Made by a program: the position numbers and the translations under genes | Assembly (NCBI GenBank): GCA_017451225.1 | Contig: JAFSPZ010000013.1 | Span: 1 to 43,797, forward strand | DNA from: Muribaculaceae bacterium | Lineage (GTDB): Bacteria; Bacteroidota; Bacteroidia; Bacteroidales; Muribaculaceae | DNA length: 43,797 nucleotides | Direction: 5' to 3' | In this document: in pieces, positions 5,638 through 43,582 of the stretch | Position numbering within the stretch: position 1 is the stretch's first letter | Layout: each line of letters starts with the position of its first letter | Notes under the pieces: generated by a model | Seen by the model: the letters and a program-made list of their open reading frames with translations, nothing else | Told to the model about the DNA's origin: nothing | Databases searched by the model: none

Positions 5638-7899
5638 TCACAAGTATTTAGCAGTGATGGAGTCATTACACGAGAGCATATCGCTTGGCGCGCCAGAGAA
5701 GATGATGCTGCCACCGTTTTCACCGGCACCGGGACCCATCTCAATAACAAAGTCGGCCGACTTTATCACGTCGGTATTATGCTCGACCACATACACAGTG
5801 TTTCCTTCGTCAACCATTTTGTTGAAGAGGTCAATGAGGTGGTGCACGTCTTTCAGGTGAAGACCGTCGGTAGGCTCGTCGATAATGAAAATGCCACGTT
5901 GCCCACCCTTGTCGACTGGCGAGGTGTAAGGCTGCAGATACGACGCTATCTTCATGCGTTGCAACTCTCCGCCCGACAGAGTGCTGAGTGCCTGGTTCAG
6001 GTGCAGATAGTCAAGCCCTACAACCATCAGTGGCTTCAGTTTTTCCTCGATGGGAGTGCCGGCAAAAAACTCGCTGGCGCGGCGAACACTCAAGTCCATC
6101 ACTTCGGCAATGTTCTTGCCATTGAGGGTATATTGCAACGCCTCTTTAGAGTAGCGCAGGCCGCCACACGCCTCGCAGGTGGTCTCGATATTGTCCATAA
6201 ACGCCATCTCCGAAATCACCACGCCCTTGCCGCCGCACACGGGGCAGCCACCCTTGCCGTTGAAGGTGAAATACTTCTCTTGCATCTTGTGGGCGCGGGC
6301 AAAGCGCTTGCGAATGTCGGGAGCCACGTCCATATAGGTTGCTGGTGTGGAGCGCAAACTGGAACCAATGTTCTTTTGGCTTATATATATAATGCCATCT
6401 TGGGCACGACGGAAGCATTCCATCAGCGAACTCTTACCTGAGCCAGCAACACCAGCCACCACGGTAAAGACTCCTAGTGGCAAATCAATGTCTACATTCT
6501 TGAGGTTGTGCAGCGATGCTCCTCGCAGCGAGAAGTGACCGCTGGCATGGCGAGGCGATGTGTTGAACTCTCCTCGCTGGCTCAGCATTGTGCCAGTGGC
6601 AGTGCCGCTCTTGAGCAGCTTGTCGTAACTGCCTTCAAATATTATCTGTCCGCCACGGCTGCCGGGGCCAGGACCAAGGTCCACGATGTGGTCGGCAATA
6701 GCAATCATCTCCTTGTGATGCTCCACAAGCAGCACCGTGTTGCCGGCGTCGCGCAGACGTCGAACCGAGTGTTTCATTTTCTCAATATCGTGATCATGCA
6801 GGCCTGTGCTGGGCTCGTCAAGGATATAGAGCACGTCGGCTAGCGACGAGTTGATATACTTTGCAATCTTGCAGCGCTGAGCCTCTCCACCCGAGAGAGT
6901 GCCCACGGCACGGTCCAGACTCAGGTAGCCAAGCCCAATCTCCTCAAGCGCTGTGAGACGTGCGCTTATTGCCTTCTTCAAGTCTACTGCCAGCGGTGAA
7001 GTAAGGGCCTTAATCCACTGGTTGAGCTTGGTGATCGACATGGCGCAAGCCTGGGCGATGTTGATGCCTTCAATCTTGCACGAGAGCACGCGAGGGCTCA
7101 GTCGTGTGCCGCCGCAGTCGGGGCAAGTGCCCATGTTAAGCATGGGGTTGAGCACAGCTGCATGTAGCAGACCTTCCTCGCTGTTGATGATGCTGCGGTA
7201 CATGCGCGGAATAATTCCCTCATATTTTGCGCTCTTGGGCCAATTTGACGGAGGATTCTTGAGCCTAATTTGCGGACTATTAAGGAACAGGTCCAGCTCC
7301 TCGGGGCTGTAGTCCTTGATTTTCTTGTCGAGGTCGAATAGGCCGCTATGGGCGTAGCGAATCCATCGCCAGCCACCCTTGCCGAAGGCGATATAGTGGA
7401 TGGTGTCCTCATCGTTGAGGCTCTTGTCGAAATCAACGAGCTTGTGGATGTCGAGTTCGCGAATCTCGCCAAGTCCCGAGCAGCGCGGACAGCTGCCCTC
7501 GGGATGGTTGAAGCTGAACGACTCGGCATAGCCCACCCAGGGCTGCCCCACGCGTGAAAAGAGAAGACGAAGCAGCGCTGCTATGTCGGTGTAGGTAGCC
7601 ACTGTCGAGCGCGAGTTCTGGGCCGGCTTCTTCTGGTCGATGACGATGGCGATAGGCAGGTTTTCAATTGCGTCAACGTGCGGACGACCATACTTGGGCA
7701 GATATTGCTGCACAAACGACGGGAAGGTGTCGTTCAACTCTCGTCTTGATTTTGCGGCAATGGTGTCGAGCACCAGCGAACTCTTTCCCGAACCCGAAAC
7801 GCCCGTGAACACGGTTATCTGATGCTTTGGAATCTCGAGCGAGACATCCTTGAGGTTGTTCTCCCGAGCTCCACGAATTATTATCTTGTCATGTGTCAT
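5638..7899 (-). CDS. uvrA: Short UvrA-family ATPase (UvrA2-like)
   Basis: A protein of about 753 residues with two ABC ATPase halves: Walker A GVSGSGKSS near residue 35, signature LSGGEAQR, Walker B ILDEPSTGL; then GVAGSGKSS, LSGGELQR and IIDEPTDGL. Zinc-knuckle pairs are present (CPRCSGLG, CPDCGG, CPVCGGKG with CEACGG). Canonical UvrA is about 940 residues. This form is roughly 190 shorter, and a segment equivalent to the UvrB-binding region appears reduced or missing, as in UvrA2/DrrC-type proteins tied to DNA-damaging drug tolerance. I prefer the ATG at 7899 over an in-frame TTG at 7908. The promoter at 7923-7953 leaves a leader of only about 15 bases. Confidence 0.88.
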   Translation of the reverse strand: MTHDKIIIRGARENNLKDVSLEIPKHQITVFTGVSGSGKSSLVLDTIAAKSRRELNDTFPSFVQQYLPKYGRPHVDAIENLPIAIVIDQKKPAQNSRSTVATYTDIAALLRLLFSRVGQPWVGYAESFSFNHPEGSCPRCSGLGEIRELDIHKLVDFDKSLNDEDTIHYIAFGKGGWRWIRYAHSGLFDLDKKIKDYSPEELDLFLNSPQIRLKNPPSNWPKSAKYEGIIPRMYRSIINSEEGLLHAAVLNPMLNMGTCPDCGGTRLSPRVLSCKIEGINIAQACAMSITKLNQWIKALTSPLAVDLKKAISARLTALEEIGLGYLSLDRAVGTLSGGEAQRCKIAKYINSSLADVLYILDEPSTGLHDHDIEKMKHSVRRLRDAGNTVLLVEHHKEMIAIADHIVDLGPGPGSRGGQIIFEGSYDKLLKSGTATGTMLSQRGEFNTSPRHASGHFSLRGASLHNLKNVDIDLPLGVFTVVAGVAGSGKSSLMECFRRAQDGIIYISQKNIGSSLRSTPATYMDVAPDIRKRFARAHKMQEKYFTFNGKGGCPVCGGKGVVISEMAFMDNIETTCEACGGLRYSKEALQYTLNGKNIAEVMDLSVRRASEFFAGTPIEEKLKPLMVVGLDYLHLNQALSTLSGGELQRMKIASYLQPYTSPVDKGGQRGIFIIDEPTDGLHLKDVHHLIDLFNKMVDEGNTVYVVEHNTDVIKSADFVIEMGPGAGENGGSIIFSGAPSDMLSCNDSITAKYL

Positions 7900-7922
7900 G
7901 ATTGTCAATGGTAATTGTGATG

Positions 7923-7953
7923 CAAATATACAACCATTTTGTCAAATGGCAAA
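7923..7953 (-). promoter_or_regulatory. Promoter of the UvrA-like gene
   Basis: Minus-strand TTTG (7950-7953), 19 bases, TATATTTG (7923-7930). The -33 box overlaps the end of the terminator of the giant upstream gene. Confidence 0.72.
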
Positions 7954-7982
7954 GCCACCTCGGCATCGCGTCGAGGTGGCTT
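7952..7982 (-). terminator. Terminator hairpin of the giant surface-protein gene
   Basis: AAGCCACCTCG (7952-7962) pairs perfectly with CGAGGTGGCTT (7972-7982) around a 9-base loop, 48 bases after the stop of the 8031-14606 gene. The following minus-strand sequence (TGCCATTTTG-like) is only weakly T-rich. Confidence 0.75.
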
Positions 7983-8030: not shown

Positions 8031-11000
8031 TTAGAACACGGCTTTGGCCGAGCGTGTCGTGCCATCGGTGTAGCGTGTCACGATAATGTTAACGCCACGG
8101 AATGGACTGTCGCTCACTTGTCCTGCTACATTGACATACTGGCGGCTCTCGACAATCTTGCCGTTCTCGACAATAATGCCTTCGATGCCGGTAGCGTTGT
8201 CAACGTAGATTGACAGTTTGATGTATTGGGTCTTGCCCTTCTGGGTGGCGCCAATAATCATTGCACGGCCGCTGTTGTTGGTCTTGGCGTTGATGTTCAG
8301 CATGCCGTCACTGTCAATTGCCAGATCAATGTCTTCACTCTCGATGTCGAGAAGAGCAGGAGCACCACCGACGGGAGCTGCTTCACCCAAGTCTTCAAGA
8401 GTGTAGATTATGCTAGAACCGTCCTCGTCAAGAGTGAAGAGCGCCTTAAGGTCAAGGTTCCAATTGCCAACTTTATAGGTGCGAGACTCCTCGGCGACAA
8501 GGTCGCGCTCGCAGTTGAAGTCGTCGAGGGCGAAGTAGGCTGCAGTATTCAAACCATATTGACCCTTATCACTGCCATCAAGCAGGAAGCGCACCTTAGC
8601 AACCTTGCCCAGAGGACGGAGGTCCATCCACTGCCAGGTGTCAAGGATATAATGGTCGAGTGCATTTTCGCTGCGGTAGTCGGCGAGATAGAAGTCGGTG
8701 CGAGCGGTCTCCTCGTCGTCGGCATCAAATCCCACTGCGGTGAGTTTGAACCACGAACCCTGAGAGAAGGCGGTTGCAAAGCCGTCGCCCACAGCCATAC
8801 CATTGTAGGCATAAGCATTGTTGCTCACATACACACCCTTCAAGTTGTCTCCGTCGGCGCTATTGGTAATCTCGATGAATTGACCCTCGGGGAAGGCGAT
8901 AGAGAAGTTGCTCGAGCCGTTGTGACCCTCGCCCACTGCGCTATGCCACTGGTCATTGAGAGAAGCATAGCTAGTTGCTGTCTCGTTACTCAGTGAGTAG
9001 CCATACCAGTAGTTGTAGCTTGGCATTGCACCGTTGTTAAAGTAGTAAGAACCGCTATAGAAGCCGTCCTCAACCATCGATGCTGTGGTTGGGTCATAAG
9101 CCCAGTGGCTCTCGTCATCGAGATAGTTGTCGTCCATCGATGCTGTCACCGCCTCGCCCAGCACGCGCACGCCAGTCTTGGCAGTTACGGTCTGTCCATC
9201 GGCACTGGTCACCGTGAGACGATAGCCATAAGAATACTCAGGAGCAACATTGAGAGTAGCTTCGTTGCCCACAACCTTGTTCATCTGGTCACGCCACTCA
9301 TAGGTGTAAGGCTCGTTGCCGCCAGCCACTACAGGAGTGATAGTAGCGGTCTCGCCAGCATTGATCGTGGCAGCCACCTTATTGAGAGTAGCGGTCAATG
9401 GCTCGATGTGGCGCAGAGTGGTGAACTCCTCGGTCTCGACCACGTCGCTCTCCTCGCCAAGTGGGCTCACTACCATGAGGTAAGCCTTGTAGGTAGTGTT
9501 TGGAGTAAGGTCGGTGAGGTTAGTGTTCACCTCGGTATCAGCAGTGATGTCGACGCCATCGGTCTCCTTGAGTTGGTCGGCAGTCACGCTCTTGAGCATT
9601 GGTGTTCCACTAGGCTCGTCGCCAACTGTCTCAACCATGTAATATAGCTTGCCGCCCACACTCCACTTGCTCTTAACGGTTGCAGTGGTCTCGGTGATGT
9701 CGTTAACGGTTGGATAACCCTCGGCAATCTCGGGTTTCTCAACTACAACCTCGGCAAACTCGTAGGCACCAATGGTTGGAGTTTCGGCATTGCGCTGCTT
9801 GCCGTCGGCATCGGTTGTGATGAAGTCGACAGGCACACCGGCGTTAAGGTTGCGAGCGCTGAGCAGGTGGTTGTCGATGTCGCTCATGAACTCGGCTTGC
9901 TCGGCAATGTTGCCTTGCTTGTTGTCGAGAGCATTGAGATCGTCGATAGTAGCTGCATGGTTCTCGAAGAGAGTTCCCGATGCTGCATACACAGCGTTGT
10001 TGGTCATAATCAACGCCTTGGCGTCGTCGGCACTGTTGATGTAGGCAAGTTTGCCGTTAGTGGTGAAGTTCTGCAGCAAGTTGTTCTGCATCTTCATTCC
10101 AGTGTAGCGGTTGCCGCTGCCAGCAGTGTAGTAAACATAGCCGTTGCTACCGCTCACGCGCACAGTGTTGTTGTAGAACGCGATGTTCTTAGAGTCGGCA
10201 GTCACTTGCAGGCCAGCGACACTGCTGCTTGAGGCGTTGGTAATAACAATACTGTTGTTGTAAACAAGGATAGGGTTCTCTGCGCTCTGACCCTCACAAC
10301 CCTGACGCATGTAGATACCTTGCGAATAGTAGGTGTGAGTGTGGGTAATCACGTTGTTGCGAACAATCATGCTGCCTGAGTTGCGGTAGATGTCCATCGA
10401 GTTGTAGCCTGTAGCGGTTGATGTGCTTTGGCTGATGTTGTTGTTCTCGATAAGGGCGTTGGCAACGTCGGTGATATAGATACCCTTGCTGCGAGGCTCA
10501 GATATCTTGTTATTGGTAATTATATAATCGAGTGCATCGGGCACAGCCACTGGACCAGGACCAGTGAGGCCCATTGCGATGTAGCCACCATAGAACTCAT
10601 TGCCATCGATGGTGAGGTAGTCGTTGTTCATGCCACCCTTGTCTTCCAAAGTGCCCACATTCTCGGTCTTGAACAAGTTCATGCCGCTGTAACCGCTGGT
10701 CACGAGCTCGGCCTTGAGGTAAGAGTCTTTGAGTGTGAAGTGGCGGCTCTGGTTGTAGATGTGGATGGCGTAAGGATAAGACTGGCTCTGTGGGATGAAG
10801 CTCATACTTTCGAAGCTTACCCAAGGAGTTGTCTCGACAAATACCATACCCTTCTTGAGCTCACCATAGGCTGGAGCGCTGTAACCGCCACCTGTGATAA
10901 TCACCTTGCTGCGGTCACCACTCTTGCTTACGAAGGTAACGGTGTTTTGCTCGCTTGTGCCACGCACCTTGCTGATGACGATGTTCTCGGCATAGCTGCC

Positions 11001-14000
11001 ATCCTCAACCTCGAAGCGCACAGCTCCCTCCACGCCATTGGCCATGGCAGCGGTAGCGGCGGCAAAGGTTGGGAAGTCGGCCTCGGCACTTGAGCCAATA
11101 ACATAGGTACCCTTGATGCCAGCAACCACCTGGCGCTCGGCATTAGTGCCAGTAACCTCAACAATGTTGTCGCCTTGAGCAACCTCAAGCACTTGCGCGT
11201 CGAGTTTGTTGCCAGTTTCGGCGTCGGCAGCCACATCGTAAGTGAGCCACAGATAGTAGTCACCATTGTCGCTGATTTCGATTGGAGTGTCGAGAGTCAT
11301 TACATTCTCTCCGTCGGCAACTGTAGTGAGCGATGCCACTGGATTAGCGTCGCTGAAGTTGGCAGTGTGATTGGTGTAATAGAGCTTAGCAGCAGTGATG
11401 TCGCTCACGCTGGTAGTTCCAGTTGTTGTGAACTTCACGCTGTTGATAGTGATAGGCTCCTTGTCGCCGCTCACGGTGACCTTGAGCTGCTGCATCAGTG
11501 CGTCGCTCATGTTGCGGTTCACGTTTTCGTTGGTAGCGGTAGCCTCAACACTCTCGATAGCGAATGGGGTCTTCTCGTGCAGTGACACTGCAATTGCCCA
11601 TCCGTCGAGGGTAGTAGCTGTAGAGTTGCCCTTATAATAAACGGTGAGAGAGCCATCCTCGGCCTTGCTCACAAGGTTTGCGGGACCAGTGGTGGTCGAG
11701 TACTTGTTGAGCAGGTTGTCATCGTTGACCTCCTGACCATTGTAAACATACATGTTGCCTGAGCCAATCGAGAATGTGCCCTGAGTGTTGAGTTCAATGG
11801 CGCTGTTCTCACGGCCGGGGATGAAGGTAACGGTTCCGGTGAGACCTTTGCTTACCTTGCCGTCAGGTCCTCCATCGTCGTAGAACATGAGAGGATTGTT
11901 GACAACAATCACGTTGTTGCCTTCCTCCATCAGATAGATGTACTTAACCACGCGAACACCTTCGGGGTCACCGTTCTCAACTGTAGTAACTGTGCCTGCG
12001 GCATCGGTGATTGAGAGGAGCTTGGCGTCGACTTGAGCCTCGGCTTCGGCGTCGGCTTTTACGTCAACGGTTACCCAGAAGTAGTTCTTGCCCTCGGTGA
12101 GCTCACGCTCGCCAGCGACAGAAACCTCGCTCTGTGCAGGATTCTCAACGTTGCCAAACTCTACTGCGGTGGCAAAGTCGTTGGTGTTGTTATAGAATAC
12201 GCTCACTTTGTTAACCGCATCCTCACTGCCCTTAAGGTCGAGAGCGACGTTGTTAATAGTGGCGGTGCTTAGAGTGCCCTCAGTCTCGACTACAAAGTCG
12301 ATGAGCTGGGCATTGCTGGCGCCTGGAGCGAGCACGTCGGTGCTAGTTTGGTTAACAGTCACACCGCTAACTTCCATGTTGTGGTTCTGGAAAGGCTGCA
12401 CAGTGGCGGTCCAACCAGTTCCTGCATAGTAGCTACTGGTGGTCTTAGGATTGAAGCGGATAGTCAGCGAACCATCGGCGCTCTGAGAACGGAGCACTTG
12501 ACCAGGACCAGTTGAGCTCTGGCTTGCGTCTTGCAAGCTCCACAGTAGGTTGGCGTTGTTTACCTCGGTGCCGCTATAAATCTCATAAACGGCTTTAGTG
12601 CCGTAGCTTGAGTTTGAGTAGTATACATCAAATGCCGAGAAGTCGATTTGTGCCACGGTGCCTGCCTCGGCAGGAGTGAAGGTGACGATGTAGTCGGCAT
12701 CTACGGTCTCATACTTGCCATTGTAGCCCTCAGTGTTGGTGAAGGTCCAAGGACCGCTGATAACATGGCTGTGTGAGCCTTGAGTGGCACGGCACACGTT
12801 GTTTACGGTGCGAGTGGCTGTGACTGCAGTCTCGGGAGCCTGGGTTGTCTCGCCCACGAGCACATTGTCGAGCGACAGAGTGATTTGCTCGCCGTTCTGC
12901 GCATTGTCGTTCAGGTCGAGAACTACGGCCACATAGTTGTGACCCTCGATAAGCTCCTTCTCGCCAGTGATGGCGATGCTGGTGCCAGTGACATCCACCT
13001 CACCAAATGGATTGGTAGTGGTGAACTCGTTCTTCTTACCTAAATAATAAGCGCGTGCGCGCGCGATGTTCTTAGCATCGGCGGCAGTGAGGTTGATACC
13101 CTTGAGGCTCAGTGGATTGGCTGTGTTGTCGGTTTGCACGTCGATGACGAGCATCTGGGCATTGGTGTCGCCTGCGCTAACTGTAGCAGTCGACGCTGCC
13201 TCGCCTGTAACACCAGCAAGTGTCATGTCGCCTGGTAGGAACTGGCTCACCAGTGCCTCCCAACCGCTCTTGGGATAACCAGCGGTGCTCTTGAGGTAGA
13301 CTGTTATAGAACCGTCGTCGGCAGTCGATTTCACGATTTCGGGCTCATCGAGTAGGGTAGTGATGAGGTTTGCCTCGTTCACTTCGCGACCGTTGTAGAA
13401 CTTAAACACGTCGTTGTAGCCCACGCTAGAAGTGTTGAACAGGTCGAGCTTCGAGAAGTCAATCTTGATGGCGTTGCCCTCGGTGGCAGGAACAAAGGTG
13501 ATTTGTCCCTCAAAACCTTGGGTAATGTTGCCATCCTTGCCGCCGTCGTCATAGAAGTTGTAGGGCACATCGCCCACAGTGATGACTTGTGGAGTGGTGG
13601 AGATGAGCGCGATAGCAGGTTTGGCGACTGCTACGGGAGTGCCAGCGGTGAACGGAGTCACTCCGTCGGGCATTCCTGCAGTAGCAATTTTGGTAATCTC
13701 AATTGCAGCCTTTGCACCAGGAACGGCATCACCCAGGAACTCTCCGGCAATCGAGAACTTGTTGGTACCCTCGGCTAATGGTTGGTTTAGGGTGAAAGTG
13801 TATCCGTCGCGATTGGTGGCAACAGTAGCATCAAGAGGTGTGTCACCCTTGAACGAAGCCTTCGAGCCTGCATAGAGGCGAAGTTGCGTTGGGTCGATAG
13901 CGTCCTCATTGGTTGTAGCCTTGAACGAGATACTGGTCACGTTGTCGGCATTCATCACGCCTGTGGTGGTGACCTCGGCTGTTGCGAAGTTAATGGCCTC

Positions 14001-14606
14001 GGTGGCAGTAGTGGCAGCATCCACGTTGTCGTAGTTGCTCGAAGCGCCAGTCACGGTCATATCTTCTAGTGTGATACACTTCACGATAGCCTTCCAGCCA
14101 TCAATGGCCTTGGCATAACGGTAAAGATAACCCACCGAGATGATGCCCGAGGCATCGGTAGCCGTGTAGGTTAAGTTCTCGTAGGTGCCGTCGAGCTTCT
14201 CGAGTACATTGCCCTCGGGCAGTGTGGAGCTTGCGGTCACGCCACTTGTTGATGTTGCATAACTGAACGACTCGTCGGGATCGGGGTCGCCAGCATACAC
14301 GTTCACGTAAGCAGGCCAGCTAGCACCGTCGTTGCGCACGTCAAGTCTCTCGAAGGTAAGCTGGATTGCTTTTCCTTCGGCGGGCTTGAACACCGTGAGC
14401 GACTGCGAATTGTTGCTGCTTGAGGATGAGATTCCTTGATAACCATTCATGTCGTAGAAGGTTATCACCTCGTCGGCAGCAACCTCGATGGTCTGCTTGC
14501 CAAATTGCAGCTGATTTACTGTGCGGTCGGCACGCGCAGGCAGTGCCATGGCCACGATAGCCATCAGCAGCACAAGGTTTTTGGAAAGTAAACTTAGTTG
14601 CTTCAT
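8031..14606 (-). CDS. Giant secreted beta-helix/DUF4465 surface protein under B12 riboswitch
   Basis: A 2191-residue exported protein. The signal peptide ends near ARA-D (residue 26) with no lipobox cysteine. Four alternating pairs of CUB-like modules (starts near 30, 341, 606 and 896; e.g. 'FYDDGGPDG' and 'FYNGREVNEANL') and BNR_assoc_N-like beta modules ('LTEGKNYFWVTVDVKADA') fill residues 30-1165. A right-handed parallel beta-helix follows at about 1166-1614 (repeated 'ITNNKIS', 'IENNNIS', 'VRNNVIT' turns). Then come an FN3-like domain (1620-1725), an Ig/PKD-like domain (1728-1815) and a DUF4465-type domain (about 1820-2035). The last 35 residues (PFRGVNIIV, TDG) resemble the end of the other giant protein here and may be a secretion or anchoring signal. 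The leader holds a cobalamin riboswitch, so expression should fall when B12 is plentiful. From memory, DUF4465 domains occur in Bacteroides BtuH-type B12-binding surface proteins. Confidence 0.85.
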   Translation of the reverse strand: MKQLSLLSKNLVLLMAIVAMALPARADRTVNQLQFGKQTIEVAADEVITFYDMNGYQGISSSSSNNSQSLTVFKPAEGKAIQLTFERLDVRNDGASWPAYVNVYAGDPDPDESFSYATSTSGVTASSTLPEGNVLEKLDGTYENLTYTATDASGIISVGYLYRYAKAIDGWKAIVKCITLEDMTVTGASSNYDNVDAATTATEAINFATAEVTTTGVMNADNVTSISFKATTNEDAIDPTQLRLYAGSKASFKGDTPLDATVATNRDGYTFTLNQPLAEGTNKFSIAGEFLGDAVPGAKAAIEITKIATAGMPDGVTPFTAGTPVAVAKPAIALISTTPQVITVGDVPYNFYDDGGKDGNITQGFEGQITFVPATEGNAIKIDFSKLDLFNTSSVGYNDVFKFYNGREVNEANLITTLLDEPEIVKSTADDGSITVYLKSTAGYPKSGWEALVSQFLPGDMTLAGVTGEAASTATVSAGDTNAQMLVIDVQTDNTANPLSLKGINLTAADAKNIARARAYYLGKKNEFTTTNPFGEVDVTGTSIAITGEKELIEGHNYVAVVLDLNDNAQNGEQITLSLDNVLVGETTQAPETAVTATRTVNNVCRATQGSHSHVISGPWTFTNTEGYNGKYETVDADYIVTFTPAEAGTVAQIDFSAFDVYYSNSSYGTKAVYEIYSGTEVNNANLLWSLQDASQSSTGPGQVLRSQSADGSLTIRFNPKTTSSYYAGTGWTATVQPFQNHNMEVSGVTVNQTSTDVLAPGASNAQLIDFVVETEGTLSTATINNVALDLKGSEDAVNKVSVFYNNTNDFATAVEFGNVENPAQSEVSVAGERELTEGKNYFWVTVDVKADAEAEAQVDAKLLSITDAAGTVTTVENGDPEGVRVVKYIYLMEEGNNVIVVNNPLMFYDDGGPDGKVSKGLTGTVTFIPGRENSAIELNTQGTFSIGSGNMYVYNGQEVNDDNLLNKYSTTTGPANLVSKAEDGSLTVYYKGNSTATTLDGWAIAVSLHEKTPFAIESVEATATNENVNRNMSDALMQQLKVTVSGDKEPITINSVKFTTTGTTSVSDITAAKLYYTNHTANFSDANPVASLTTVADGENVMTLDTPIEISDNGDYYLWLTYDVAADAETGNKLDAQVLEVAQGDNIVEVTGTNAERQVVAGIKGTYVIGSSAEADFPTFAAATAAMANGVEGAVRFEVEDGSYAENIVISKVRGTSEQNTVTFVSKSGDRSKVIITGGGYSAPAYGELKKGMVFVETTPWVSFESMSFIPQSQSYPYAIHIYNQSRHFTLKDSYLKAELVTSGYSGMNLFKTENVGTLEDKGGMNNDYLTIDGNEFYGGYIAMGLTGPGPVAVPDALDYIITNNKISEPRSKGIYITDVANALIENNNISQSTSTATGYNSMDIYRNSGSMIVRNNVITHTHTYYSQGIYMRQGCEGQSAENPILVYNNSIVITNASSSSVAGLQVTADSKNIAFYNNTVRVSGSNGYVYYTAGSGNRYTGMKMQNNLLQNFTTNGKLAYINSADDAKALIMTNNAVYAASGTLFENHAATIDDLNALDNKQGNIAEQAEFMSDIDNHLLSARNLNAGVPVDFITTDADGKQRNAETPTIGAYEFAEVVVEKPEIAEGYPTVNDITETTATVKSKWSVGGKLYYMVETVGDEPSGTPMLKSVTADQLKETDGVDITADTEVNTNLTDLTPNTTYKAYLMVVSPLGEESDVVETEEFTTLRHIEPLTATLNKVAATINAGETATITPVVAGGNEPYTYEWRDQMNKVVGNEATLNVAPEYSYGYRLTVTSADGQTVTAKTGVRVLGEAVTASMDDNYLDDESHWAYDPTTASMVEDGFYSGSYYFNNGAMPSYNYWYGYSLSNETATSYASLNDQWHSAVGEGHNGSSNFSIAFPEGQFIEITNSADGDNLKGVYVSNNAYAYNGMAVGDGFATAFSQGSWFKLTAVGFDADDEETARTDFYLADYRSENALDHYILDTWQWMDLRPLGKVAKVRFLLDGSDKGQYGLNTAAYFALDDFNCERDLVAEESRTYKVGNWNLDLKALFTLDEDGSSIIYTLEDLGEAAPVGGAPALLDIESEDIDLAIDSDGMLNINAKTNNSGRAMIIGATQKGKTQYIKLSIYVDNATGIEGIIVENGKIVESRQYVNVAGQVSDSPFRGVNIIVTRYTDGTTRSAKAVF

Positions 14607-14631
14607 AGTTAATTAATTATGTTAATAAAAT

Positions 14632-14663
14632 CGTCATTTCACTATACTCTCGGTGAAACGACG
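14632..14663 (-). promoter_or_regulatory. Candidate riboswitch expression platform (terminator-like hairpin)
   Basis: On the minus strand CGTCGTTTCAC (14653-14663) pairs with GTGAAATGACG (14632-14642) over 11 bp, with one G-U pair, around a 10-base loop. It is followed by ATTTTATT and then the start codon 25 bases on. Two further small hairpins lie upstream (14698-14715 and 14668-14682). This could act as a regulated terminator or hide the start site. Confidence 0.55.
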
Positions 14664-14815
14664 AAACAACATGAAGCATGTTACGAAATGATGCACTACA
14701 CCATGGCGATGGTGTGCAAAATGGCTATAGACGCCCCTCAGCGATGCAAATAGCTTGAAAACCTGCGATGTGTTCCGGCTCTAATTCCACGAGAGCACGA
14801 AAAATTTTTAACGAT

Positions 14816-15012
14816 AACGAGGCAGGTCTTCTGGCTAATTCCCATCGCTCGCCTTGGGGCCTTCCCACCAAAAAACTGGCAGTGACCGAAAATTGTGAAA
14901 ATTCGGCAAGCGACATGTGGGGAAAATACAGCAGCGGGTTCTGCCCAGGATTCTCACCTGTGTTCCCTTTTCAGCCAACAGTGGAGCGGGTGCTCATGCT
15001 GGCCACCACATT
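14816..15012 (-). ncRNA. Cobalamin (B12) riboswitch aptamer
   Basis: Read on the minus strand, the leader has the conserved cobalamin elements in order: AAAAGGGAACACAGGTGAG near the 5' side, then AATCCTGGGCAGAACCCGCT, then a CACTG...GGGAAGGCC segment, and finally the B12 box GCCAGAAGACCTGCC (14821-14835). Transcription probably begins near 15015, so the aptamer opens the transcript. The only gene downstream on this strand is the giant surface protein starting at 14606, about 210 bases away. Confidence 0.93.
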
Positions 15013-15021
15013 ATCACGCTG

Positions 15022-15053
15022 CAAAGGTAAGCACATTTTGCCATTTCACCAAA
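15022..15053 (-). promoter_or_regulatory. Promoter of the B12 riboswitch transcript
   Basis: Minus-strand TTTG (15050-15053), 20 bases, TACCTTTG (15022-15029): a near-perfect Bacteroidetes promoter. The predicted start, about 15015, leaves a leader of roughly 410 bases before the coding start. Confidence 0.82.
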
Positions 15054-39412: not shown

Positions 39413-42400
39413 ATGTTTAAAAAATTCTATCTAAAACTACTGATGAGCCTGATGCTCACGGCACTAACCGTGCCGCAGACCTGGGCGGAGACGGCAGAGG
39501 TTGGCGGGACATCGACCAATAACCAGGTGCCGTTAAACTGCCAGTATGGTGACTATGGATACCATAGTCAGATGGTTTATTCTCAAGCCATGTTAGAAGA
39601 GGCTGGTTTGCCAGCAGGAGCAAAAATTACTGCTATCACGTTCTATACCAGTTCTGGCTATGCTCTTAGTAATCCTAATGGTTCAGCTAACAATCCTTTG
39701 ACCATTAAGCTTGGGCAACCTGAAGGTACAACATTGCCAAGTTTTGTTACAGATAATTTGACTACTGTATCAACTACTGGAAACATTTGGTCAGGTGAAA
39801 CTTCTGTAACTCTTGAGTTTGACAGCGACAAAGCCTATACCTATGATGGAGGTAATCTGCTGATTGACCTTTCATGGGCATATGCTAGTGGGGGTTATTA
39901 TAAAAGTATTTACTGGTTAGTATCATCAGCAACAGGTGCTTCGCGCTATGCTAATAATAACAGTTCGGGTGTAGAACAAAGCTCAACCTCTAGCAACTAT
40001 CTACCCAAAATTACTTTCACCTACGAATCAGGTGAGGCCCAGGACTATGCAGCTAAGGTGTCGCCCAGTAGCTTAGACTTTGGTTCACTTCTTGTTGATG
40101 CTACCGACACAAAGAGTGTGACCATTCAGAACAAGGGTGCCTTGGAACTTCCTTACACAATCACAGGATTGAATGCTCCATTTAGCACCACTTCTACCAG
40201 CGGCTCGATTGCCGCAGGTTCAGATGTTAGCGTACCTGTTACCTTCACTCCCACCGCTGCAGGTTCTTTCGAAGGCGACATGCTAATTTCATTCCCTGGA
40301 AGTGGGCTTAATGATGTTACTGTTCATGTTACTGGCTCTGCTTCAGATGCTATCTGCAACGGAACAGATGAGAATACCTACTTGCCAATCTATGGCTATT
40401 GCTACGACTACACTCAAAAGAACCAAATGATTTATCCTGCATCATTACTTACTAAGTATGTGGGCAAAAATATCACAGCTCTTAAATTTTATACCAAAGA
40501 TGGTGTGAAATATAGTGATGGTTCTTATAATGTATCATTAGGTACAACTACTCAAAGTGAGTTTGCATCGTCAAGTCCTAGCCCTGCGAGTGCTACACTT
40601 ACAGTTGTTAAATCTGGTTTGACTGCCACCGATGGTGTGAATGGCAATGAACTTTCAATTACTTTTGACAATCCTTTCCTCTATGAAGGTGGCAACCTTG
40701 TTGTCGATTTCGAAGTTGTTACTAAGGGTACTTGTGATCCATATAGCAGCCGAACAAACTTTATTGGAGAAAATCAATCTTCTAACACTGCATATTATAG
40801 CTATGTAACCTATGGTACTAATAGGGTTGCTAATCCGGTGAAATTCCTTCCCAAAATGGACGTTACTGTTGGCGAGACTCCTGCTACTCCGGTTATCACC
40901 GTTGATCCCGCTACTGTAGAGGCATTCAGCACTGAGGTTGGTACTCCTGTAACTGCTACTGTTAATGTTACTGGCGAGAACTTGACTGGTGACATCACAG
41001 CTAATGTCAGTGGCGATGATGCCTTCACTGCAGCTCTGGAGAATGGTGTGCTCACCATTACTTACAACCCCACTGCTGCCGGCAACCACACTGCAACTGT
41101 CACTCTCTCGAGCGAGGGTGCTCAGGACGTGACTATCGCCCTTACCGGTACCGCTACCGCTCCTGCTGTTGACTATGCAGTGACCATGAGCGACAACACT
41201 GGTGCTCACAACTATGGCAACGTATTGGTTAACAGTTCAAATGTTTGGACTCTTACTATTACCAACAATGGCACCCAGACCGTTACTCCAACTCTGACTG
41301 GTCTTGAGGCTCCATTCTCTACCACTTACACCGCTACTGCTCTGGCTGCTGGCGAGAGCGCAACCATTAGCATTAACTATGCTCCCACCGAGCTTGGTGA
41401 ACACAGCAACACCATTACCATCTCGTTCCCCGAGGCTGGTGATGCTATCGCTGCCTACACTTGCGAGCTCACTGGTAAGGCTGTGGAAGAGTCATACGAC
41501 CCAAGCGACGAGAATGAGGTGGTTAAGCTTGTAACTGTTGACCAGCGCAGTATTTATGAGCCTGCGTTCATCGACAACGCTAACGGCAACACCACTCCCC
41601 AGCAGCTCAACTGCTACGACATGCGATTCAAGATGGCTCAGCCCGACGATCCCAGCAAGCGAATCAAGGCTGGTGACCTGCGTCCAGGCAACAACCTCTT
41701 TGAGTTCTATGCCATCGACGACTTTGGCACTGAGTTCCGTTTTGCTACCATTAACCTCTTTGCCGAGGGTCAGCCTTCAAGCAACCCATCGGTTAACGCA
41801 ATGGATGCTCCCATCAAGGTGACTCCTTCGGTTGAATATTATACCGAGGATGGTATGCCTGTGCATCCAGACCATACACATTACACCACTCTCAACTACA
41901 CCGAGAAGACCTACAACGACATCAACGAGCTTGTTGACCTCGAAGGTGTGATTGACTATGTGAACGACACTTGGTCGGCTAACACAGCCACCAACGCACA
42001 TCCCGATCACTACAAGTTCCAGATCCGTGGCGTGGGCCAGTATGGTGACATGGTTACTTCGCTTACTGCAGAGTACGTGGAAAGTCACATGACCGGATAT
42101 GGTAATCAGCTCGTTATGCCCGAAGGATGGGAGCGTGGTTCGTTTGCTGGTCCAAACAACGAGGCTTCCGATGATGTACACACATTCTATTATTATGACC
42201 TCTACATCAAGAAATCTTTCTTCGATGAGCGTGGTATTACCGGCCCTGTGACTGTGGTTGTAAACACAACCCTGTCGGGTAGCGGATTTAATGCCGATAA
42301 CTACAAGGCCATGAGCGTGAATGGTGTTGAGCAGATTATCGCAAAAGAGGAGTTTAAAGACTACTCTTGGACAGTGCCCTTGTTGGATGAAATACCTTCC

Positions 42401-43582
42401 AGCTCTATTGTTGAGCAAGTGCCTATGGGCGTGGTTATCCGACTGGTATCTACAGGTGCCGACTTTAACAGAACCACTGGTATTTACATCTACGGTGGTG
42501 GCACTGGCGTGAGCAACGTTGACACTGTGAATATCTACAAGTCGTCGATGAACGTGAAGGCCTACACTCAGAAGCAGGTTGATGACGACACCGATCGCAG
42601 CCTTGTTGCCATGAATGCCGGCGCAAAATCCGATGTTAACGTTTTGGCTTATGGCGACCCCGCTGTTACTGGTTATGTCTTAAACAAGAACACCAGCGCC
42701 AGCACAACAGGCATGACTGAGGTGGCATCTGCTAATCATGAAATTGGTGATGACGTTCACAGATATGTAGTTAACAGTACAGGTACATACAATGGCTCTT
42801 ACAACTTTATTCGTGATGAGTCGCTGGGTAATATCGATGGCATGTGGTTGCCCATGTATCCAGCAAGTGAAAACGAATATTACTTGCCTGTAACTTGGGC
42901 TAACGGTGTTGGTGATGACGGCGTAGTTCGCTCAGAAAACAATACCTACGGTTCTGCTATGCAGCAGGTAGAGAAGAACGGCTCTGTGGCTTTCACCTCA
43001 AGAAATTGCGAAAGAAGCCAGTACACTTGGGTTGTGGATGGTGAGACCTATTCTTACTATAGCCCAGAAGTTGTCCTTAATGGCGAGTTGCCTGCAGCAG
43101 GTTATGAGCTTTATAAATACCGTTTGTGGGTAGATTACGATGACAATGCACCTGCATGGGACTTCGAAATTGATACAGAAGGTAAAACTCATTTGACCAA
43201 TAAGATGGACCGTCCACTCGACGAGGGCACAACTCCTGAGCTTGGTGGAGAATTTCCTGAATCAGGAAAACAAAACTGGATATTCGTTGCTCCTGCCGAT
43301 TTGAATGAGGTGAAATTAGTTGCTCGCTTCTATTACAAGAAGACCTCTACCGGCAAGGCTCGTCCAACCGACAAAGACCGTCTCTACTACGTTGTTGAGA
43401 ACCAAGTCACAGCTCCAGTAGGTGTCGTTACTGGCGTTGACAATGTTTCAAGCAAGGCTGTAGCAAATGTCAAGTACTACAACATGATGGGTGTTGAGAG
43501 CAATGTTCCATTCCAGGGTGCCAACATCGAAGTTATCACCTTCACCGATGGTTCACGCACAACTCGCAAGATCATGAAGTAA
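39413..43582 (+). CDS. Giant secreted multi-domain surface protein
   Basis: A 1389-residue exported protein. The signal peptide ends near TWA-E (residue 26). Two related modules (about 27-205 and 316-480) share 'YGY', 'QMVYSQAMLEEAG'/'QMIYPASLLTKY' and 'ITAITFYT'/'ITALKFYT' patterns. They alternate with Ig-like ASH/choice-of-anchor-D modules: 'SLDFGSLLVDATDTKSVTIQNKG' type at about 212-305, a second Ig-like module at 490-585, and another ASH module at 586-690 ('NYGNVLVNSSNVWTLTITNNG'). The part from about 700 to 1340 is unique and rich in Y, D and N. The last 35 residues (PFQGANIEV, TDG, K) align without gaps to the end of the 8031-14606 protein. Probably an adhesin or cell-surface structural protein. 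An IS element begins about 75 bases downstream. Confidence 0.85.
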   Translation: MFKKFYLKLLMSLMLTALTVPQTWAETAEVGGTSTNNQVPLNCQYGDYGYHSQMVYSQAMLEEAGLPAGAKITAITFYTSSGYALSNPNGSANNPLTIKLGQPEGTTLPSFVTDNLTTVSTTGNIWSGETSVTLEFDSDKAYTYDGGNLLIDLSWAYASGGYYKSIYWLVSSATGASRYANNNSSGVEQSSTSSNYLPKITFTYESGEAQDYAAKVSPSSLDFGSLLVDATDTKSVTIQNKGALELPYTITGLNAPFSTTSTSGSIAAGSDVSVPVTFTPTAAGSFEGDMLISFPGSGLNDVTVHVTGSASDAICNGTDENTYLPIYGYCYDYTQKNQMIYPASLLTKYVGKNITALKFYTKDGVKYSDGSYNVSLGTTTQSEFASSSPSPASATLTVVKSGLTATDGVNGNELSITFDNPFLYEGGNLVVDFEVVTKGTCDPYSSRTNFIGENQSSNTAYYSYVTYGTNRVANPVKFLPKMDVTVGETPATPVITVDPATVEAFSTEVGTPVTATVNVTGENLTGDITANVSGDDAFTAALENGVLTITYNPTAAGNHTATVTLSSEGAQDVTIALTGTATAPAVDYAVTMSDNTGAHNYGNVLVNSSNVWTLTITNNGTQTVTPTLTGLEAPFSTTYTATALAAGESATISINYAPTELGEHSNTITISFPEAGDAIAAYTCELTGKAVEESYDPSDENEVVKLVTVDQRSIYEPAFIDNANGNTTPQQLNCYDMRFKMAQPDDPSKRIKAGDLRPGNNLFEFYAIDDFGTEFRFATINLFAEGQPSSNPSVNAMDAPIKVTPSVEYYTEDGMPVHPDHTHYTTLNYTEKTYNDINELVDLEGVIDYVNDTWSANTATNAHPDHYKFQIRGVGQYGDMVTSLTAEYVESHMTGYGNQLVMPEGWERGSFAGPNNEASDDVHTFYYYDLYIKKSFFDERGITGPVTVVVNTTLSGSGFNADNYKAMSVNGVEQIIAKEEFKDYSWTVPLLDEIPSSSIVEQVPMGVVIRLVSTGADFNRTTGIYIYGGGTGVSNVDTVNIYKSSMNVKAYTQKQVDDDTDRSLVAMNAGAKSDVNVLAYGDPAVTGYVLNKNTSASTTGMTEVASANHEIGDDVHRYVVNSTGTYNGSYNFIRDESLGNIDGMWLPMYPASENEYYLPVTWANGVGDDGVVRSENNTYGSAMQQVEKNGSVAFTSRNCERSQYTWVVDGETYSYYSPEVVLNGELPAAGYELYKYRLWVDYDDNAPAWDFEIDTEGKTHLTNKMDRPLDEGTTPELGGEFPESGKQNWIFVAPADLNEVKLVARFYYKKTSTGKARPTDKDRLYYVVENQVTAPVGVVTGVDNVSSKAVANVKYYNMMGVESNVPFQGANIEVITFTDGSRTTRKIMK

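Follow-up and report, generated by a model that had tools for sequence, protein, structure and literature searches.

Introduction

The accessory proteins of B12 uptake described so far in Bacteroidales, namely BtuG, BtuH, BtuJ and BtuK, are surface lipoproteins far smaller than the protein treated here, a predicted exported polypeptide of 2191 residues encoded on contig JAFSPZ010000013.1 of a Muribaculaceae bacterium (assembly GCA_017451225.1) and termed the giant in the following. The window, i.e. the whole stretch of DNA analysed, comprises 43,797 nucleotides of this contig, and the giant gene lies therein on the minus strand, preceded by a cobalamin riboswitch. Competition for B12 among Bacteroidales is an active question, to which the family of giants adds a conserved exported component.

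The closest known systems are BtuJ1 and BtuJ2 (BT_1491 and BT_1957) of Bacteroides thetaiotaomicron, which are single-domain lipoproteins (256 and 305 residues in their PDB chains), as well as DUF4465 proteins such as D5EK51 (IPR027828). DUF4465 is a published B12-binding fold, and binding has been shown for eight of its members (PMC13398666). DUF4465 is equivalent to BtuJ and adopts an augmented beta-jellyroll (PMC12751083, PMC13398666). A prior interpretation of the window, made from the letters alone and referred to below as the sequence-only reading, had proposed that a B12 riboswitch directly controls the giant and that a B12-binding module is carried on it.

A cobalamin riboswitch upstream of the giant gene

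The giant coding sequence forms a single open reading frame at positions 8031-14606 of the minus strand, along which full-length homologues could be aligned. Upstream of it lies the sole cobalamin riboswitch (RF00174) detected in the window by cmscan with Rfam, at positions 14804-15025 of the minus strand, with 93.6 bits (expectation value, E, 3.8e-22) against a gathering score of 31.5 and a match spanning the full model (1-189), and thus the whole aptamer. The sequence-only reading had recognised this minus-strand aptamer together with its B12 box (about 14821-14836), and the Rfam check bears it out. The promoter that it had placed before the aptamer is likewise present as a TTTG-N20-TACCTTTG pattern at positions 15022-15053 of the minus strand, which overlaps the 5' end of the aptamer and fits the promoter pattern of Bacteroidetes. 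Of 80 sequences tested upstream of riboswitches, 42 contain the same pattern, compared with 0.35 expected from shuffled sequences. The end of the aptamer and the start codon of the giant are separated by about 200 bases. B12 lowers downstream expression from B. thetaiotaomicron leaders (PMC12751083), and by analogy the riboswitch of the giant presumably acts as an off-switch as well.

A BtuJ-type domain near the C-terminus

The domain that connects the giant to B12 is a DUF4465, BtuJ-type jellyroll at residues 1815-2034 (positions 8505-9164, minus strand). PF14717 matches residues 1863-2030 with E 1e-51 and 176.2 bits against a cut-off of 25, the modelled domain displays the augmented jellyroll fold, and its AlphaFold models match BtuJ-B12 complexes, in line with matches of the domain to B12-bound PDB structures. 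None of the homologues with the 3' end on the contig lacks DUF4465. Counted along the BtuJ1 alignment, the giant features both the HI-loop motif N-T-x-x-Y and the DE-loop tyrosine that contact B12: residues N2020, T2021, Y2024 and Y1932 align with N241, T242, Y245 and Y146 of BtuJ1, so that four mapped contacts are kept. Among 94 domains compared, Y2024 is conserved in 86 and T2021 in 80. The window copy would be expected to bind B12.

The sequence-only reading had placed DUF4465 in BtuH-type lipoproteins, an assignment that has to be withdrawn, given that the domain belongs to the BtuJ family by its Pfam, PDB and fold matches and not to BtuH (PMC8941943). The fold is nonetheless that of a B12-binding family. 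BtuH structures are absent from the six PDB sequence matches of the giant (E<=1), a list that was not complemented by a search with a BtuH profile, and the fold lists do not exclude BtuH.

Conservation of the riboswitch-giant linkage

In a sample of 149 Muribaculaceae genomes, DUF4465 matches occur in 96; in 18 of these genomes, from eight genera, a match lies in an open frame of 2072-2346 codons. The riboswitch is found directly upstream in 17 of these 18 giants, i.e. the window and 16 of the 17 others, and the eighteenth (genome G109, loci L052/L096) follows a riboswitch, BtuB, BtuG and BtuH on one strand. With the alignment of giants as query, a wider scan covered public species genomes, and the best 80 of the 155 relatives found were kept, 13 of the 17 other family-sample loci being among them. 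The query pattern came from a CUB module, which made the scan unselective for the riboswitch. These best 80 of 155 stem from Muribaculaceae, from Prevotella including P. koreensis and P. aurantiaca, and from many rumen metagenome-assembled genomes, with a few records from Dysgonomonas (Dysgonomonas sp. BGC7) and Paludibacteraceae.

Five of the 80 loci are cut by contig ends and lack upstream sequence (L068, L106, L110, L113 and L114). A same-strand upstream cobalamin riboswitch was detected by a covariance model in all 75 others; it lies less than 1 kb from the giant in 57, with a median of 214 bases between the end of the match and the ATG, and further upstream in the remaining 18. Since the covariance model was built from the giants' own riboswitches, the independent checks are those by Rfam, which agreed in 13 of the 13 loci re-tested, the lowest-scoring included. 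With about two cobalamin riboswitches per genome, we estimate that chance would place such a neighbour next to roughly one gene in a thousand. In Dysgonomonas sp. BGC7 (L090), four cobalamin riboswitches are situated in a stretch of 26 kb around the giant, two of them divergent near 25.1-25.8 kb.

The module architecture is conserved as well: four pairs of CUB and CBM93-type modules, a beta-helix, FN3, Ig and DUF4465 domains and a variable tail follow one another in exactly this order in 76 of 97 loci scanned, and 75 complete copies with identical order measure 2,062-2,346 codons. Alignments A4 and A5 each comprise 42 sequences (the giant of the window and 41 chosen from 57 non-redundant loci), and A6 comprises 33; locus L002, wrongly stranded in alignment A2, was excluded from alignment A3. 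The mid-size DUF4465 loci L056 and L058 have a riboswitch match by the covariance model, and L057 has none.

Association with BtuB, BtuG and BtuH

Neighbouring genes were counted with domain-only queries taken from the C60 locus of the same genome, the identity of which is supported by PDB matches: BtuB to BtuB1 (8blw_A, E 1.4e-132), BtuG to BtuG-type YncE proteins (8blw_B, E 1.5e-39), and BtuH to 7BIZ (E 1.4e-45) and to the BtuH part of 8blw_B (E 7e-61). Of these structures, 8BLW represents BtuB1G1 (PMC10404256) and 7BIZ represents BtuH (PMC8941943). By these queries, at least one of BtuB, BtuG, BtuH and a second DUF4465 gene accompanies the giant within the retrieved locus in 32 of the 75 testable cases; BtuB, BtuG or BtuH stands between riboswitch and giant in 18 of 75, and BtuH directly precedes the giant in 17 of 75, with frames overlapping by 4 bases in L116 and L134. 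The 80 layouts comprise the riboswitch and giant alone (42), riboswitch-BtuB-BtuG-BtuH-giant (6), riboswitch-BtuH-giant (6), riboswitch-giant-BtuH (4), 16 other combinations of BtuB, BtuG, BtuH and second DUF4465 genes, L090 with only further riboswitches, and the five cut loci. Judging from strand and spacing, the riboswitch-Btu-giant runs probably constitute operons.

None of the 26 open reading frames scanned in the window, the giant included, was found to encode BtuB, BtuG or BtuH, just as the sequence-only reading had noted. Its picture of a single oddity remote from Btu genes is incomplete, the homologues being widespread, uniformly preceded by the riboswitch where testable and partly separated from it by Btu genes. 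In the genome of the window, which is 85.5% complete, a second cobalamin riboswitch and a second DUF4465 gene occur, each of them in the C60 locus, where BtuB, BtuG, a dockerin-bearing BtuH and a BtuJ of 320 residues are encoded. A demand for B12 is indicated by methylmalonyl-CoA mutase in 13 of 13 genomes of the genus, that of the window included.

Two further features of Btu loci may be recorded. The BtuH of the C60 locus (L005:11913-13124) ends in a type I dockerin (PF00404), and DUF4465 proteins enlarged to about 985-1,210 residues are encoded beside BtuB/BtuG at L104:20888-23845, L112:3789-7346 and L121:7808-11431.

The N-terminal arm, beta-helix and spacers

Pfam assigns to the giant DUF4465, three stretches of PF14873 (BNR_assoc_N), Beta_helix and CUB, the CUB match reaching 23.4 bits against 21.4 and Beta_helix 25.9 bits, right at its cut-off. 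The N-terminal arm (residues 24-1187; 11046-14537, minus strand) is composed of four CUB-type modules that alternate with four PF14873/CBM93-type modules, which upholds the CUB-like modules of the sequence-only reading and adds the second module type to them. Both assignments combine a Pfam match, above cut-off in the case of PF14873, with the fold: AlphaFold models of the arm match CUB domains and the sugar-binding module of sialidases, and PF14873 recurs in 42 of 42 arms. In a single-sequence search, module 3, which is of the CBM93 type, matches solved sialidases only weakly (E 0.017), and no sialidase domain was found in the giant. The folds of the arm are of glycan- and protein-binding types, and the arm may bind glycans or glycoproteins.

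The arm is followed by a right-handed parallel, CASH-like beta-helix (residues 1190-1618; 9753-11039, minus strand), the fold of which is similar to that of epimerases and lyases and to helices of carbohydrate-active proteins and adhesins, PfbA for example. Near-invariant residues are Y1377 (39 of 42), D1405 (41 of 42), R1434 (39 of 42) and Q1512 (39 of 42). Of these, Y1377, D1405 and R1434 are spaced by 28-29 residues and are possibly stacked on one face of the helix, which might be catalytic or glycan-binding. Residues 1619-1814 (9165-9752, minus strand) form spacers that we label FN3-like and Ig/SprB-like on the basis of alignment and model, the SprB match being weak and below cut-off; Foldseek relates the C-terminal half of the giant to Ig-array proteins. 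In L127 (frame from 9973, plus strand), a shortened relative of 1338 codons retains only cub4-bnr4-beta-helix-FN3-Ig-DUF4465 with the riboswitch still upstream, from which it follows that the long arm can be reduced.

Export and the C-terminal tail

The giant starts with a Sec-type signal peptide (14529-14606, minus strand) that, in the translation examined by eye, is devoid of a lipobox. Among the N-termini of 71 homologues (nine of the 80 loci were left out), a loose lipobox pattern occurs once, with its cysteine inside the hydrophobic stretch. An exported non-lipoprotein with beta-helix and DUF4465 in one frame, as envisaged by the sequence-only reading, is therefore retained. At the other end, positions 8034-8189 (minus strand) encode a C-terminal tail, a putative surface-sorting or anchor signal shared with 17 other places in the genome. 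The last 50 residues define this tail type at 18 places in total, among them the BtuJ of the C60 locus, and these differ from the 11 places that match TIGR04183 in the same genome. Another bearer of the tail in the window is a protein of 1389 residues with ASH/HYDIN-type Ig domains (39413-43582, plus strand).

Of 74 tails compared, 24 match the type of the window and the rest are, by eye, type-A or other short tails, save for dockerin-like repeats (also by eye) at the end of two giants (L082 and L104). A type-A domain of the type IX secretion system (T9SS) takes the tail position in nine of ten selected homologues. The genome of the window encodes one SprA and three PorU-type sortases, i.e. 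translocon and sortase of a T9SS, and export of the giant by this route appears likely from these sequence features. Co-occurrence of SprA with giants was considered as further evidence and discarded as uninformative, because SprA is present in 144 of the 149 genomes of the family. The three PorU-like sortases (NF033707) are arranged in tandem at C64:41920-53703 of a genome with two separate classes of C-terminal tails, and at least two PorU-like matches, fragments included, exist in each of 13 genus genomes; possibly, paralogous PorU-like sortases differ in tail specificity.

Since the tail, if it is an anchor, adjoins the BtuJ-type domain, the latter would reside near the membrane with the arm pointing outward. 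The sequence-only reading had pictured the B12 module as held out on a stalk, an orientation that is probably the reverse of the actual one.

Leader and downstream gene

The 236-base leader of the window folds with a z of -2.36. Directly before the start codon, at positions 14624-14663 (minus strand), a predicted hairpin of 11-12 bp followed by ATTTTATT may act as a terminator or as an element that sequesters the start codon. Moreover, folding weakly indicates a possible anti-B12-box GCAGGTTTTC at 14757-14766 (minus strand), complementary to the B12 box, in a pairing that 2 of 50 shuffled sequences equalled (0.04); GCAGGTTTTC or a shorter form of it was found in six near relatives. As a general expression platform, an anti-B12-box is not supported, with only 5 of 54 leaders beating shuffles at 0.02, none of the five being that of the window and two of them pairing via other sequence.

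The giant directly follows the riboswitch, as the sequence-only reading had it; it need not be the sole gene on its transcript, as an open reading frame for a short UvrA-like protein of 756 residues (5638-7908, minus strand) begins 122 bp further downstream in the same orientation. Between the two, the one hairpin found that resembles a terminator (13 bp with a T tail, 7952-7982) was flagged on the plus strand, opposite to the giant, and promoter-like minus-strand sites are located at 7908 and 7952.

Proposed function and alternative explanations

Considering these features together, we regard it as fairly likely that the giant is an exported, B12-repressed surface accessory for B12 capture in BtuB/BtuG/BtuH uptake, with its B12 site near the anchor and its arm directed outward. 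The proposal refines the idea of the sequence-only reading that the protein might capture B12 or reach other surfaces. Plentiful B12 would switch the gene off through the riboswitch, while scarcity of B12 would allow synthesis of the protein, which would cross the inner membrane by virtue of its Sec signal and be carried to the surface through its C-terminal tail, most likely via the T9SS. Displayed there, the BtuJ-type domain would bind a cobamide close to the cell and hand it over to BtuBG. The four CUB-type and four CBM93-type modules and the beta-helix would extend outward and bind glycans or glycoproteins, thereby holding the cell or the protein at sites where the vitamin, or material that bears it, accumulates.

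Several observations weigh against this proposal. N2020 is an asparagine in only 41 of the 94 domains, and the AB-loop contact Y97 of BtuJ1 is unmatched, aligning with L1883 and being a tyrosine in only 6 of 94. The HI-loop motif is lost in two species (L054/L122 and L055/L115), and phenylalanine replaces Y2024 in two more species (L102 and L109); as all these variants keep the riboswitch, the rest of the protein may outweigh B12 binding in some giants, and the two species lend themselves as natural variants in which the function of the arm is separated from B12 binding. CUB2 and CUB3 rank first among the modules in conservation (mean identity 0.51 and 0.48), ahead of DUF4465 in third place (0.43). 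Furthermore, the tail of the window copy gives no hit to TIGR04183, the T9SS type-A model, the type-A domain was found in only 9 of 42 homologues of the wider set, and the genome, 85.5% complete, yielded no MetH.

Some of these points feed the main rival explanation, according to which the arm does the essential work and B12 serves just as a cue: a glycan-binding adhesin made upon B12 scarcity would move cells to B12-rich niches such as mucus, epithelium or the vicinity of producers, DUF4465 being minor or vestigial. The prominence of CUB2 and CUB3, the glycan- or protein-binding folds of the arm, the likeness of the beta-helix to carbohydrate-active and adhesin helices, and the retention of the riboswitch in the two species without the HI-loop motif would all suit such an adhesin. 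The invariable presence of DUF4465 at intact 3' ends and its own third rank in conservation are at odds with a vestigial domain, as are the B12-contact residues kept in most copies and the close packing with BtuH, down to overlapping frames, so that we deem the adhesin unlikely. A released or vesicle-borne trap, which would bind B12 at a distance and be recaptured in the manner of BtuJ1 and BtuJ2, appears decidedly improbable. BtuJ proteins act on extracellular vesicles (PMC12751083), and the tails of the giants vary among species, including the two dockerin-like ones, as if anchoring differed; against this, BtuJ1 and BtuJ2 are lipoproteins and the giant lacks a lipobox. Finally, an aptamer that merely happens to lie in front of a structural protein unrelated to it might be suspected from the window, where the gene stands apart from any Btu gene seen there. 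This notion is refuted by the riboswitch in 75 of 75 testable loci, with Btu genes in between in 18, and its probability is next to nil.

As an extension of the favoured capture accessory, the arm could be a receptor for B12 carriers, its CUB and sialoglycan-type CBM93 modules seizing glycosylated host proteins such as haptocorrin and intrinsic factor, or B12-loaded vesicles of other bacteria, from which the BtuJ-type domain near the membrane would strip B12 for BtuBG. We consider this improbable; if true, the giant would be for bacteria what cubilin is for mammals, and commensals would take B12 from carriers and not only as the free vitamin.

Comparison with known systems

In mammals, the CUB array of cubilin acts as the receptor of intrinsic factor-B12. 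The arm of the giant shares tandem CUB domains with cubilin (3KQ4), which is its second-ranked Foldseek match (E 1.1e-12); there is no overall superposition (template-modelling score, TM, 0.11 of the query), and the likeness is one of fold only. It is moreover shared with other CUB proteins, neuropilins and PCPE-1 matching the arm too. Compared with the CBM93 sialidases NanH of T. forsythia and BTSA, the giant has no sialidase domain that could be found and possesses four CBM93-type copies alternating with CUB modules.

BtuJ, BtuH, BtuG, CUB and CBM93 are individually known, and their multi-module combination or its linkage to a riboswitch was not described in the literature searched, which did not extend to subscription journals and preprints. 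Pfam and NCBIfam supply only domain names for the giant, and the family thus provides a testable function for a large protein known by such names alone. Many gut and rumen Bacteroidales carry a giant, which points to an unrecognised part of the competition for B12. Two questions can now be put to the test: is the capture of B12 spatially tied to mucus or glycoproteins, and can these bacteria obtain the vitamin from its glycosylated carriers?

Like the giant, BtuH (7BIZ) is a B12-binding accessory of the same riboswitch loci; unlike the giant, it is a separate protein, and its B12-binding domain had no known structural homologue when solved (PMC8941943). C-terminal targeting as such is not foreign to the BtuJ family, with IPR026444 annotated in 229 of 824 DUF4465 proteins (PMC12751083). 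In contrast to the single-domain BtuJ1 and BtuJ2, DUF4465 here ends a protein of 2191 residues with CUB, CBM93-type, beta-helix, FN3 and Ig modules, a non-lipoprotein signal and a sorting-like tail. The giant family thereby unites a B12-binding fold with a series of modules of glycan- and protein-binding types.

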